A stretch of DNA of 51,213 nt from Gammaproteobacteria bacterium (GTDB taxonomy: Bacteria; Pseudomonadota; Gammaproteobacteria; GCA-001735895): contig JASJCI010000018.1 in assembly GCA_030066085.1 (NCBI GenBank), positions 1 through 51,213 of the forward strand. Reading direction: 5' to 3'. The translations under genes were made by a program, and so were the position numbers. The notes below the pieces were generated by a model. It was not told the DNA's origin. It worked only from the letters and a program-made list of their open reading frames with translations, and ran no database searches. Of the stretch, positions 21,852-37,194 are shown piece after piece (position 1 is the first letter of the stretch; every line of letters starts with the position of its first letter).

Positions 21852-22871
21852 ATGAAAGTATTGGGCATCGAAACCTCCTGCGACGAGACCGGAATCGCGG
21901 TTTACGACAGCGTCAGCGGCGAACTCTCGCAGCGGCTTTATTCGCAGGTCGAAAAACATCGCGAGTACGGTGGCGTGGTTCCCGAGATCGCGTCGCGCGA
22001 TCACGTCGCCAGGGCCGCGCCACTGGTAACCGATATCCTGCAGGAAATTGGCGCGATCGGCGATATCGACGCGATTGCCTACACCCGCGGCCCGGGCCTG
22101 ATCGGTGCGTTGATGGTCGGTGCGAACCTGGCGCGAGGTCTTGCCTGGGCAATGCAGCGGCCGCTGCTCGGCGTGCATCACATGGAAGGGCATTTGCTCG
22201 CTCCGCTGATGGCGACGGAAAAACCCGACTTCCCGTTCGTTGCCCTGCTGGTCTCCGGCGGCCATACCCTGCTGGTCGATGCGCGTGCCATCGGCGACTA
22301 CCGCATCCTCGGCGAGACCCTCGACGACGCCGTGGGCGAGGCTTTCGACAAGACCGCCAAGCTGCTCGGCCTGCCGTACCCGGGCGGCCCGCAACTGGCG
22401 GCCCTGGCCGACCAGGTGGCGTCCAGCCGGTTCGATTTTCCGCGCCCGATGACCAACCGCCCGGGGCTGGAGTTCAGTTTCTCCGGGCTCAAGACCGCGG
22501 CGCTGGTACTGGTGCAGAACGAGACGCCGCTGGACGATTCAACTCGATCAGAGATTGCCTACGCGTTTCAGCGGGCGGTGGTGGATACCCTGCGGATCAA
22601 GTGCGAACGCGCGCTCGAGGCGACCGGTTATGCCGACCTCGTTATCGCGGGCGGTGTCGGCGCCAACCGTTTGTTGCGCGCCGAGCTCAAGCGCGCCTGC
22701 GAGGCGCGCGGCGCACGCGCGTGGTTCCCGGCGCTGGAATACTGCACCGATAACGGCGCGATGATCGCCTATGCCGGCGCCCAGCGACTCGCCGCCGGGC
22801 AGGTAGACGAAGCAGTGCACGACGTCCTGCCGCGCTGGTCCCTCGAGTCCCTGCCGGCTCTGCAAGGATAG
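21852..22871 (+). CDS. tsaD: tRNA N6-threonylcarbamoyladenosine transferase TsaD
   Basis: Transfers the threonylcarbamoyl group to A37 of ANN-decoding tRNAs, together with TsaB and TsaE. The 339-residue product starts [14 protein letters not shown], the ATPase phosphate motif. Near residue 110 it carries the metal-binding HMEGH motif ([13 protein letters not shown]). VSGGHTLL and the C-terminal [13 protein letters not shown] follow. Length is typical (E. coli 337). It diverges from rpsU and converges with plsY. Confidence 0.98.
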
Positions 22872-33392: not shown

Positions 33393-34256
33393 TTACGCGA
33401 AGGAAGTCTTGATCGACTTGAACGCGTTGGCTTCGATCTGTCGAATCCGCTCGGCGGAAACCCCGAATTCCTCGGCCAGCTCGTGCAGGGTCGACTTGGG
33501 TTCGGTCAACCAGCGGCGGGTGACGATGGTCTTGCTGCGATCGTCGAGCTTGCCCATCGCCGCGGATAACATTTGCATGTTGTTGTCGCTGGTATCCTGC
33601 TTTTCCAGCAGCAATTCCGGTGACGGCGTGTTCGACGACAGGGAGTTTGACGGTGCCAGGTAGGCCGAGTCTTCGTCCTCGTCGGCCGGGGCGTCGAACG
33701 CGAGATCGTAGTTGTTGAGCCGGTTTTCCATCTCGATAACGTTTTCGCGGGTCACGCCGAGGGTTTCCGCAACCTCGTCGATTTCCTCGAGCTTGAACCA
33801 GCCCAGGCGTTTCTTCTGGCTGCGCAGCTTGAAGAACAGCTTGCGCTGGGCCTTGGTCGTGGCCACCTTGACGATGCGCCAGTTCTTCAGGATGTATTCG
33901 TGAATCTCGGCCTTGATCCAGTGCACCGCGAATGAGACCAGGCGCACGCCAACCTCCGGATCGAAACGCTTGACGGCCTTCATCAGGCCGATGCTGCCCT
34001 CCTGGATGAGGTCGGCGATCGGCAGGCCATAACCCGCGTAGTTGTTGGCAATCTTGATGACAAAACGGAGGTGTGGCAGGACGAGCTTTTGCGCGGACTC
34101 GAGGTTGCCGGTCTGCTGCAGGTCCGTTGCCAGCGCGTACTCTTCCTCGGCGGTCAGAACCGGGATGCTCCGGGCGGCCTGAATGTAGGCCTCCAGGTTG
34201 GAGCTGCCGGTCAGCGCGGGCAGGGTGTTGCGGCTAAGGGCCAGTTCTGTGCTCAT
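33393..34256 (-). CDS. rpoH: Heat-shock sigma factor RpoH (sigma-32)
   Basis: Directs RNA polymerase to heat-shock promoters (chaperones, proteases). The 287-residue product has the -10-binding region LVSFAVHWIKAEIHEYIL, the RpoH-specific box QRKLFFKLRSQKKRLGW, and a region 4 helix-turn-helix TLHELAEEFGVSAERIRQIE. Length matches E. coli RpoH (284). The ATG has AGAGGA six bases upstream. A CIRCE-type operator lies 26-52 bp upstream, over the predicted start of transcription. slyD is divergent, and a response regulator plus slyD separate it from ftsX. Confidence 0.98.
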   Translation of the reverse strand: MSTELALSRNTLPALTGSSNLEAYIQAARSIPVLTAEEEYALATDLQQTGNLESAQKLVLPHLRFVIKIANNYAGYGLPIADLIQEGSIGLMKAVKRFDPEVGVRLVSFAVHWIKAEIHEYILKNWRIVKVATTKAQRKLFFKLRSQKKRLGWFKLEEIDEVAETLGVTRENVIEMENRLNNYDLAFDAPADEDEDSAYLAPSNSLSSNTPSPELLLEKQDTSDNNMQMLSAAMGKLDDRSKTIVTRRWLTEPKSTLHELAEEFGVSAERIRQIEANAFKSIKTSFA

Positions 34257-34281
34257 GAATATTCCTCTTCGGTGTCTATTT

Positions 34282-34308
34282 TTAGCACTCTAAGAGATCG
34301 AGTGCCAG
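34282..34308. promoter_or_regulatory. CIRCE-like HrcA operator upstream of rpoH
   Basis: The plus strand reads TTAGCACTC, nine bases (taagagatc), GAGTGCCAG. The CIRCE consensus is TTAGCACTC-N9-GAGTGCTAA. The left arm is perfect and the right arm matches 7 of 9, with exact spacing. It covers about -1 to +25 of the predicted rpoH transcript, a typical place for repression by HrcA. hrcA itself is not in the window. Confidence 0.85.
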
Positions 34309-34310
34309 TA

Positions 34311-34340
34311 ATTAGAGCATAAACAACGCAATAAGTTCAA
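34311..34340 (-). promoter_or_regulatory. Putative sigma-70 promoter of rpoH
   Basis: On the minus strand TTGAAC (34335-34340; 4 of 6) and TCTAAT (34311-34316; 5 of 6) are 18 bp apart. The expected start point falls within the adjacent CIRCE palindrome. CTTGAAC resembles a sigma-32 -35, but no CCCCAT-type -10 follows at 13-14 bp, so I favour sigma-70. Confidence 0.55.
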
Positions 34341-34840
34341 GTAAATTAGCAATTGTTAATATGGTCTGTAAGTACATGTTAAATAAAGAAAAACTAATCA
34401 ATATACGCAGTTTCGGGTGCTTCGGATCAAACCGGAAGGGGTAAACGGGACAGTATTCGCGAGCCAGGTCGACAAGAAGTTCGGATGACGGGCCGGGTCG
34501 CGTCCGTGCCCACGGTTGCCTGCCGCCCGGACTGACGCAGCAGGTCCCGGAAGTGGCATTGTCGTCGCGGCTGCGGTCGCGCAATCGACGGGAATTTCCT
34601 TCGCCGCCAGGCGGCTGCATTGACTACCCGCGGCATGCGGTTACTCTCGTTTCGACTACGGTGGGGCAAGCGGTCGACCGGTCGCTGACTCGGCTCTTCG
34701 CCTGCTGTTATACTGTGCACGCGGTGGAGTTTCGTTCGCTGCAACAGTCTCCAGGATTCTCACCCAGAAAGTCTTGAGCGGGTTTCGTGGAATAGCCATG
34801 AGCAGTCCGCTCGCAGGACGTTTTACAGGAATCCTTTTGT
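34341..34840. other. Gene-poor interval between rpoH and slyD
   Basis: About 500 bp without a credible gene. The first 80 bp are AT-rich (near 34341-34410) and the rest is GC-rich. Open frames on both strands (up to about 105 codons) overlap one another and resemble nothing I recognise. A plausible slyD promoter lies at the far end: CTGACT (34685-34690), 18 bp, TATACT (34709-34714). The remainder could hold a long leader, an unrecognised small RNA or decayed sequence. Confidence 0.5.
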
Positions 34841-35326
34841 ATGAGCATTACCCAGAACAAGGTCGTCAGCATTCACTACAACGTGGTTGACGCCGACAGC
34901 GAGGAGAGCATCGACTCATCTGACGGTCGCGATCCGATGGTGTACCTGCACGGTGCACGTAATATCATCCCGGGGCTCGAGCAGGCGCTCGAAGGCAAGG
35001 CGGCGGGAGATGCGTTCGATGTCACCGTGGCGGCTGTCGATGCCTACGGTGAGCACAGCGACGACCGGGTACAAAAAGTGCCGCGCGAAGCCTTCGCCGA
35101 AATCAGCGAGGTCTATCCCGGTCTGAAGGTCACCGCGCAGACCGACATGGGGCCGATAGAGTTACTGGTCACGGAGGTTGCGGACGACGAGGTTACGGTC
35201 GATGCGAATCACCCGCTGGCGGGGAGGAACCTGAAGTTCAGCGTGCGCGTGGAAGACGTGCGGGACGCAAGCGAGGAAGAGGTTGCTCACGGACATGTGC
35301 ATGGCCCCGGCGGACAGGAGCACTAG
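34841..35326 (+). CDS. slyD: FKBP-type peptidyl-prolyl isomerase, SlyD-like
   Basis: Cytosolic prolyl isomerase and chaperone with a metal-binding tail. The 161-residue product starts MSITQNKVVSIHYNVVD, then DPMVYLHGARNIIPGLEQALEG (FKBP half), an insert-in-flap domain (about 70-120), and LAGRNLKFSVRVEDVRDA. The C-terminal tail is short and modestly His-rich (HGHVHGPGGQEH), much shorter than in E. coli SlyD. AGGA lies about 9 bases before the ATG. Divergent from rpoH, so two proteostasis genes face each other. Confidence 0.93.
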   Translation: MSITQNKVVSIHYNVVDADSEESIDSSDGRDPMVYLHGARNIIPGLEQALEGKAAGDAFDVTVAAVDAYGEHSDDRVQKVPREAFAEISEVYPGLKVTAQTDMGPIELLVTEVADDEVTVDANHPLAGRNLKFSVRVEDVRDASEEEVAHGHVHGPGGQEH

Positions 35327-35392: not shown

Positions 35393-36223
35393 TCAGGGAT
35401 TCAGAGCTTCGCTCTGGCGCTTGACGTTGACCAGCGTGCGCAGGCGCGTGAGCAGGTCGTGCTCGTCTACCGGCTTGGTAATGAAATCATTGGTTCCGGC
35501 GCCGAAGATGCCGGTGAAGTCGGTGCGCTCGTCTTCGCCGGGCTCGATCGTCATCAACAGCACCGGTAGCGCCAGGTAGTCCAGCTCGAGGTCGTTGCGC
35601 ACCGCCTGGATCAGCTCGAAGCCGTTCATGTCGCCCGACAGCGTCAGGTCGGTGATCATCACGTCGATAGCGGTTTCGCCGTTGTTTACCGCCATGTCCC
35701 GCCGCAGGAACGCCAGCGCCTCGGATGCCTCGCGAAAATGCTGGTACTCGATGTTGTTGCGATCGAGTATCGCGGTCGTAATCGCGGTCGAGGTCGCGCT
35801 CTTGTCGACATAGAGCACCTTGACCGGAAAGTCGTTGCGCGTGCCGAGGTAATTCAGGATAAAGTTGACCAGCGACTTGTGACCTTCCGCCTTGTCGAAA
35901 TAGGCGGTGACCGCATCGGTATCCTCCATGCTGGCGCCCATGACCCGCGTATCGGTATCGCCGGAAACGACGAAAATCGCGGTGTCCTTGTTTTTCGGCG
36001 TTTGCCTGATCTGATCGATCAACTGGTAACCGTCGGTGTCCGGCAGCGATATTCCGGTGGTGATGATTTCGAATTCGAAACGCTTGACCGCGGTCAGTGC
36101 TTCCTTGCCGGTGCCGCAGGCAATGATGTCCAGGTCGGGTGCCTCGGCGGAAATCTCCTTGAACAGGATCGTACGTGCCGAATCGGACGAGTCGATCAGT
36201 AACAGGCGGCGTTTTCCGGACAT
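35393..36223 (-). CDS. Response regulator with two receiver domains, the first degenerate
   Basis: A 276-residue cytosolic protein with two CheY-like receivers (about 6-125 and 134-265) and no output domain. In the second, Asp192 (ITDLTLSG) is the expected phosphoacceptor and Lys250 (ITKPVDE) the conserved lysine. In the first, the phosphoacceptor position is Gly57 (IITTGISLPDTDG), so it cannot be phosphorylated normally, though Lys111 is kept. The ATG at 36223 gives a clean receiver start; the frame continues 19 codons upstream into ftsX. It starts 11 bp after ftsX. Its partner kinase and role are unknown. Confidence 0.85.
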   Translation of the reverse strand: MSGKRRLLLIDSSDSARTILFKEISAEAPDLDIIACGTGKEALTAVKRFEFEIITTGISLPDTDGYQLIDQIRQTPKNKDTAIFVVSGDTDTRVMGASMEDTDAVTAYFDKAEGHKSLVNFILNYLGTRNDFPVKVLYVDKSATSTAITTAILDRNNIEYQHFREASEALAFLRRDMAVNNGETAIDVMITDLTLSGDMNGFELIQAVRNDLELDYLALPVLLMTIEPGEDERTDFTGIFGAGTNDFITKPVDEHDLLTRLRTLVNVKRQSEALNP

Positions 36224-36234
36224 GAACTGCTTCG

Positions 36235-37194
36235 TTAACTGGGTTCTATTTGTTTCAGGTGGCGGGCCACCGCGATCCATGACCCGGCGAGGCCCAGCAA
36301 TGTACTAGAGGTTAGCAGAATAAAGAAGTCGTGCAGGGAAAATGTTATCAGCTGGTGCTCTGACTGGTACAGCAGGTTGAGACGCTGCAGCGGGCCCGAG
36401 ATGGCGAGGTAACCCAGTTCCACGATGAGCCAGGACAGCAGGCCGCCGAACAGGCCGTACCATACCCCGCCGTAAAGAAACGGGCGGCGGATGAAGGCGT
36501 CGGTTGCCCCGATCAGCTTGGTGACGATGATTTCCTGGTAGCGGTTCTGGATATCGAGACGGATCGTGTTGCCGATTACCAGCAGCACCGCGATCGCGAA
36601 CAGCGCGGTAATGATGGCGACCCCGCGCTGCGCGATTTCAAGGATCGTGTACAGGCGTTCGAGCCACTCGGTATCGAGCTTGGCAATATCCACTTCAGGC
36701 AGGGCCTGCAGTTCACCGAGCAGGTTGCGCACGCGAAAACGGTCGATCTCGAGCTGCGGCTCGACCACGATGGTGTGCGGCAGGGGGTTACTGCTGAGCG
36801 TATCGATACTCTTGCCGAAGCCCGAGTCTTGACGAAATTCCTGTAGCGATACCTCGCGCGAAATGAAGCGCGTCGACTCGACGTCGGGCATCGCCGCGAT
36901 CTGTTCGTCCAGCGACCTTGCCCGGTTTTCATCGACACCGAGGTCGAGGAACAGGCTGATCTGCGAACTCGAGCGTAGATCGCCGGACATGGCCTCTATG
37001 TTCTTGAGGAAGAGGTAAAATCCGCCGGGCAGCGACAGCGTAATGCCGATGACCGCTACCGTCATCAGCGTGGTGGCCGGGGCCTGGTAAATCTTGCCCA
37101 GGCTGAAGATGAGCGACTGCAGGTGATGGGCCAGGTAAGCCGATAAATGGATACCGCTGCCTGGCCGCCGGCGCCGACGGTTACTCGTAGCCAT
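36235..37194 (-). CDS. ftsX: Cell division protein FtsX
   Basis: Membrane partner of FtsE; the complex activates periplasmic septal amidase regulators during division. The 319-residue product has a basic cytosolic N-terminus, a first membrane segment (about 42-64), a large periplasmic loop, and three further segments. RLDIQNRYQEIIVTKLIGATDAFIRRPF is the conserved FtsX cytosolic loop. It overlaps ftsE by 14 bp. It is followed by a response regulator rather than rpoH. Confidence 0.96.
   Translation of the reverse strand: MATSNRRRRRPGSGIHLSAYLAHHLQSLIFSLGKIYQAPATTLMTVAVIGITLSLPGGFYLFLKNIEAMSGDLRSSSQISLFLDLGVDENRARSLDEQIAAMPDVESTRFISREVSLQEFRQDSGFGKSIDTLSSNPLPHTIVVEPQLEIDRFRVRNLLGELQALPEVDIAKLDTEWLERLYTILEIAQRGVAIITALFAIAVLLVIGNTIRLDIQNRYQEIIVTKLIGATDAFIRRPFLYGGVWYGLFGGLLSWLIVELGYLAISGPLQRLNLLYQSEHQLITFSLHDFFILLTSSTLLGLAGSWIAVARHLKQIEPS

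Follow-up and report, generated by a model that had tools for sequence, protein, structure and literature searches.

The transcription start region of rpoH, the gene for sigma-32, probably carries an operator for the repressor HrcA (CIRCE) in this gammaproteobacterium, and by its position on a promoter of the sigma-E type this operator would allow HrcA to block sigma-E-driven transcription. This reading is built on what was directly observed, namely the sites and genes themselves, how well they are conserved, and how the palindrome is associated with hrcA across the class.

The CIRCE palindrome at the rpoH locus

The features concerned lie side by side in the window, by which we mean the whole stretch of 51,213 nucleotides that was analysed:

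33393..34256, minus strand: rpoH, sigma-32, 287 aa (TIGR02392, 387.8 bits, above the cut-off of 323.1; Pfam sigma-70 regions 1.2, 2 and 4)
34257..34281, minus strand: last part of the untranslated leader, including a purine-rich stretch ahead of the ATG, from reading of the sequence
34282..34308, no strand assigned: predicted HrcA operator, a CIRCE palindrome (arms matching at 16 of 18 positions, spacer of 9; GCACTC/GAGTGC core in 31 of 31 family rows)
34312..34316, minus strand: predicted -10 box of sigma-E type, TCTAA, read from the letters (hexamer TCTAAT at 34311-34316, in 31 of 31 family rows)
34333..34339, minus strand: predicted -35 box of sigma-E type, TGAACTT, 16 nt before the -10 box (TGAAC in 31 of 31 family rows)

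The letters of the plus strand at 34282-34308 are TTAGCACTC-N9-GAGTGCCAG, with two mismatches over 18 arm positions to the CIRCE consensus used here (TTAGCACTC-N9-GAGTGCTAA, few mismatches being allowed). The original prediction of a palindrome agreeing with CIRCE in 16 of the 18 arm positions and having the exact spacer of 9 is confirmed at these coordinates; the distance to the rpoH ATG, which it had put at 26 bp, is 25 bases (34257-34281). This is the sole match with three or fewer mismatches in the window, and 100 shuffles of the window gave a mean of 0.01 such matches (one shuffle had one).

The closest named RpoH proteins, at 82-85% identity, belong to uncultured Gammaproteobacteria, and the gene lies near ftsX in the window, as it does in E. 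coli K-12. A gene between ftsX and rpoH (35393-36280, minus strand) encodes a 295-aa protein whose Pfam matches are limited to two receiver domains. Divergent from rpoH is a gene for a SlyD-like FKBP isomerase (34841-35326, plus strand), and the roughly 500 bases that separate it from the promoter side of rpoH (34340-34840) hold no obvious gene and no Rfam match. The FKBP gene, with its start at 34841 on the plus strand, is rejected as the target of the operator because it lies more than 530 bases away.

HrcA, RpoE and other CIRCE sites in the same genome

Does the genome encode the repressor? This had been set as a test beforehand, and hrcA was found (TIGR00331, 326 bits against a cut-off of 197), the protein matching both Pfam HrcA domains (C-terminal and DNA-binding). 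The open frames at this locus have the order hrcA-grpE-dnaK-dnaJ, where those beside hrcA are taken to be grpE, dnaK and dnaJ, named from their sequences. The same genome also encodes rpoE (TIGR02939, 315 bits; cut-off 236).

At three or fewer mismatches, CIRCE matches in the whole genome are restricted to the rpoH site and those before groES. A perfect CIRCE lies at C35:22405-22431, upstream of a groES-like open frame, and is itself preceded by a sigma-32-like promoter, CTTGAAT-N13-CCCCAA. Contig C35 of this genome (G000) has two copies here, a perfect one and one with 3 mismatches, which overlap by 3 bases (22405-22455; 2406-2456 of locus L116). A search for further sites at groES, dnaK and grpE had been proposed: the one at groES exists, whereas the 10 kb around hrcA (locus L115; G000 C1:64000-74000) contain no CIRCE at four or fewer mismatches. 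Since the hrcA region lacks the site over these 10 kb, the predicted HrcA regulon of this genome would consist of groESL and rpoH. No sigma-32-like match occurs in the 500 nt before hrcA, and a weak one, GTTGAAA-N13-CCCTAC, is found shortly before dnaK in L115.

CIRCE before rpoH follows hrcA across the class

How widespread is this arrangement? The original prediction had left the matter open. The class was surveyed through an even draw of 159 genomes with completeness of at least 95%; 7 lacked an RpoH match at E 1e-75, and 149 were analysed among the matches listed. A site was counted when a CIRCE with at most three arm mismatches lay within 350 nt upstream of rpoH (the better site where a genome has two RpoH genes), and a genome without a match at E 1e-10 was scored as lacking hrcA; four genomes scored as positive carry only hrcA fragments under the family cut-off. 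By these measures the arrangement is widespread. CIRCE precedes rpoH in 102 of 110 genomes with hrcA versus 4 of 39 without it (Fisher's test, 6e-22, uncorrected for relatedness), while three or fewer mismatches were reached by none of 2980 resampled sequences and none of 151 neighbouring stretches. Two of the sites with 3 mismatches, in G158 and G231, look weak. As a control, CIRCE upstream of genes other than rpoH was assessed by eye at a handful of loci. An additional 19 members of the class gave the same picture, with a site in 3/3 genomes that have hrcA and 0/16 that do not. This distribution suggests that CIRCE-on-rpoH wiring is common in the class and absent from E. coli.

The exceptions go both ways. 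All eight of the 110 hrcA-bearing genomes without a site at rpoH have a CIRCE elsewhere (two or fewer mismatches), and the rpoH wiring is therefore dispensable. Among the genomes scored as lacking hrcA, G194 has a second CIRCE elsewhere in addition to that at rpoH, a hint that its hrcA was missed. The rpoH site is the only CIRCE of G051 and G188; in G147 it has 3 mismatches, and no other CIRCE is present at two or fewer.

Two genomes, G115 (L199, L209) and G231 (L185, L212), have two RpoH genes each, only one copy of which carries a CIRCE-like site (three or fewer mismatches). Upstream of rpoH in L143 (G234) and L286 (G332), variant operators occur, GCAGTC-N9-GACTGC, with both arms altered alike; judging by these letters, the specificity of HrcA may have shifted in the two genomes.

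In the family alignment all 31 rows, the window's own among them, keep the GCACTC/GAGTGC core intact, and the surrounding sequence varies. Among 34 further genomes of relatives, 25 of the 28 with hrcA have the site at three or fewer mismatches; of the other three, two have it at 4 mismatches and one has a contig that ends at the gene. The site is also found in five of the six relatives without hrcA, and those five assemblies, in which hrcA may lie outside the assembled sequence, are 62-91% complete. Named gammaproteobacterial genomes (50 of 80 loci) divide sharply: 21 of 21 with hrcA have the site, including Alcanivorax, Alishewanella, Rheinheimera, Ketobacter and Thiodiazotropha, versus 0 of 29 without it, including Pseudomonas, Halomonas, Legionella and Aeromonas; one of the latter, L044, has a site at 4 mismatches. 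Alcanivorax jadensis is one of those with both hrcA and the site. The named set leaves out L034 and L035, which count among the relatives as G023 and G006, and 28 other loci; these 28 are mostly from Pseudomonas and lack any site at five or fewer mismatches. The upstream sequence of L036 is that of G013, so that the named and relatives sets share one sequence. Conservation of the palindrome before rpoH, a further point of the original prediction, is thus borne out by the family core and by the way the site tracks hrcA across the class. Together with the presence of hrcA itself, it supports the proposal that HrcA would act over rpoH.

An RpoH tree with 139 rows implies 12 changes of hrcA and 12 of CIRCE, versus 38-45 for shuffled CIRCE labellings (5 of 50 listed). 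Well-supported branches of this tree provide 5 independent pairs, in which CIRCE goes with hrcA in 4.8 (mean) and in the opposite direction in 0.0; five pairs are too few to reach significance. A tree of 144 rows has 17 changes of hrcA and 13 of CIRCE; the smaller tree is without the incomplete hrcA-negative genomes G019, G027, G028 and G040, and without G005, which is not assessable. Neither tree includes G006 or G023; the sites of G004 and G012, at 4 mismatches, were scored as present; and class-survey genomes fetched with just 100 bases of the gene were excluded. Outside the class, 39 of 57 genomes with hrcA were examined: four have the site, all from one family, and another has it at 4 mismatches.

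A probable promoter of the sigma-E type

Sigma-E promoters have a GGAACTT-like -35 element and a TCTRA -10 element, 15-17 nt apart. The rpoH promoter of the window, on the minus strand, is TGAACTT-N16-TCTAA and agrees with this consensus at 11 of 12 positions. The region had originally been read as TTGAAC-N18-TCTAAT; these letters are indeed present on the minus strand, but the sigma-E reading fits them better. All 31 family rows, the window's own among them, have both TGAAC and TCTAAT.

When 105 sites from the class are aligned on CIRCE, base counts directly upstream favour GGAACT. GAAC, the -35 core of sigma-E promoters, occurs at -16 to -14 from CIRCE in 73 of the 105 (exactly at -15 in 61); elsewhere between -60 and -4 it occurs at most 9 times at any one position. 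With the usual spacing, a GAAC 14-16 nt before CIRCE would place the -10 element (TCTRA) on CIRCE +7 to +11, inside the operator, and in 60 of 73 genomes having both motifs the -10 does start at CIRCE +7. The family of the window departs from this register: its promoter lies 15 bases further upstream and TCTAAT ends 2 bases before CIRCE, leaving the -10 just outside the operator, not within it.

At the threshold used, a sigma-E motif is found in 72 of 102 CIRCE-bearing genomes with hrcA versus 45 of 1490 resampled sequences, and 30 of the 102 have none; where CIRCE is missing, the motif occurs in 4/8 genomes with hrcA and 7/35 without. AAC in the -35 element was a requirement of the scan, and CIRCE itself already supplies the T and C of the -10; the independent evidence is thus the distance of the -35. 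A generic -35/-10 scan around CIRCE revealed no shared sigma-70 register. From these motifs, the rpoH promoter appears to fit sigma-E better than sigma-70, with a predicted start. Sigma-32 promoters follow the consensus CTTGAAA-N11-16-CCCCAT, and the 644 nt upstream of rpoH contain no match to it at 10 or more of 13 positions; autoregulation of rpoH by sigma-32 is rejected on this ground. Binding of sigma-E at rpoH is reported for Salmonella (PMC4577112) and Vibrio alginolyticus (PMC4890791).

Alternative readings

Could HrcA act on a sigma-70 promoter instead, so that rpoH reads HrcA alone and sigma-E is uninvolved in this lineage? We regard this as possible but rather unlikely. TTGAAC-N18-TCTAAT has a spacing of 18 and a TG one base before the hexamer (an extended -10) that is constant in 31 of 31 family rows, and the four genomes of one family outside the class have CIRCE without GAAC at the sigma-E distance. 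In the -10 hexamer sigma-70 favours A as the second base, however, and all 31 family rows have C there; moreover, the class sites show the sigma-E -35 core at a fixed distance, and rpoH of E. coli carries the same sigma-E motif.

A transcript starting inside the first arm could form a 6-bp hairpin at its 5' end, and the palindrome would then be a hairpin or thermometer in rpoH mRNA and not a DNA operator, which is very improbable. The fold of the leader is no better than that of shuffles (z -0.33), and Rfam at gathering level gives no match in the window; an RNA thermometer in the rpoH leader is rejected on these two results. In addition, the presence of the site tracks hrcA, and the commonest register in the class puts the start past the first arm, so that no hairpin is possible there. 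Slightly more improbable still is a relic or chance match that is presently functionless. The four of 39 hrcA-negative genomes that keep a site would suit a relic, but the core is intact in 31 of 31 family rows amid varying nearby sequence, and a chance origin is rejected by the window shuffles (mean 0.01) and by the resampled sequences (0 of 2980 at three or fewer mismatches).

Comparison with known systems

The rpoH gene of E. coli K-12 carries TTGAACTT-N16-TCTGA, compared with TGAACTT-N16-TCTAA here. The GAAC of that motif begins 120 bases before the ATG, and the promoter is known as P3. Unlike the present gene, E. coli K-12 rpoH has no CIRCE, its best match from -350 to +30 having 7 mismatches, and E. 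coli was not among the matches when control genomes were searched for hrcA.

Rodionov et al. (2004, PMC545781) predicted a CIRCE before rpoH in Geobacter sulfurreducens. As here, the site lies shortly upstream of rpoH (at -51 there), hrcA is present and a CIRCE precedes groESL (PMC545781). Unlike here, the organism is a delta-proteobacterium, the only one with an rpoH CIRCE among those covered in the relevant passage, which mentions no sigma-E promoter for rpoH; CIRCE also precedes hrcA-grpE-dnaKJ in G. sulfurreducens (PMC545781), whereas none was found here at four or fewer mismatches in the 10 kb around hrcA. The classical CIRCE/HrcA system of groE and dnaK operons, as outlined there for Bacillus subtilis and others (PMC545781), has the same palindrome, spacing and repressor family. 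In contrast to that system, the target here is a sigma factor gene, and the repressor would therefore govern an entire regulon instead of individual chaperone operons. Apart from Geobacter, our literature search found no CIRCE before rpoH, and Permina and Gelfand 2003, on gammaproteobacterial heat-shock regulons, may already report rpoH sites; the merged sigma-E/CIRCE promoter and the class-wide tie to hrcA were not found in this search.

Proposed mechanism

From the layout of genes and sites we infer binding of HrcA, repression, use of sigma-E and feedback. In the unstressed cell, HrcA on the operator would cover the -10 or start region and keep RNA polymerase from rpoH. Heat or unfolded protein would inactivate HrcA, either directly or by GroEL being drawn away. 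GroEL is thought to be needed by HrcA, from work on HrcA elsewhere. For the direct route, HrcA is presented as a thermosensor in the title of PMC8533110 and also in PMC10696704. On release of HrcA, rpoH would be transcribed, above all with sigma-E active. RpoH would in turn direct transcription of groESL from the sigma-32-like promoter, and the new GroEL would restore HrcA, closing a negative loop. As a whole, rpoH would read 'sigma-E active AND HrcA off'. PMC3224663 reports that hrcA and rpoH mRNA are both up in nitrogen-starved Xylella, a joint rise that is contrary to simple repression, provided that Xylella has the site.

Implications

HrcA/CIRCE and sigma-32 usually count as separate heat-shock circuits. 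In this genome the repressor appears to control the sigma factor at its own gene, with the envelope-stress input (sigma-E) coming in at almost the same bases as HrcA. The chances seem evenly balanced that rpoH in Gammaproteobacteria was ancestrally controlled by the merged sigma-E/HrcA promoter, with its -10 inside the operator, and that the E. coli circuit (translational, with chaperone feedback) was derived after repeated joint loss of hrcA and its rpoH operator. Should the class pattern hold, the majority of hrcA-bearing gammaproteobacteria would have a transcriptional control of sigma-32 that is missing from the E. coli model. Genomes with both hrcA and the site, and those with neither, provide natural before-and-after cases of circuit loss.
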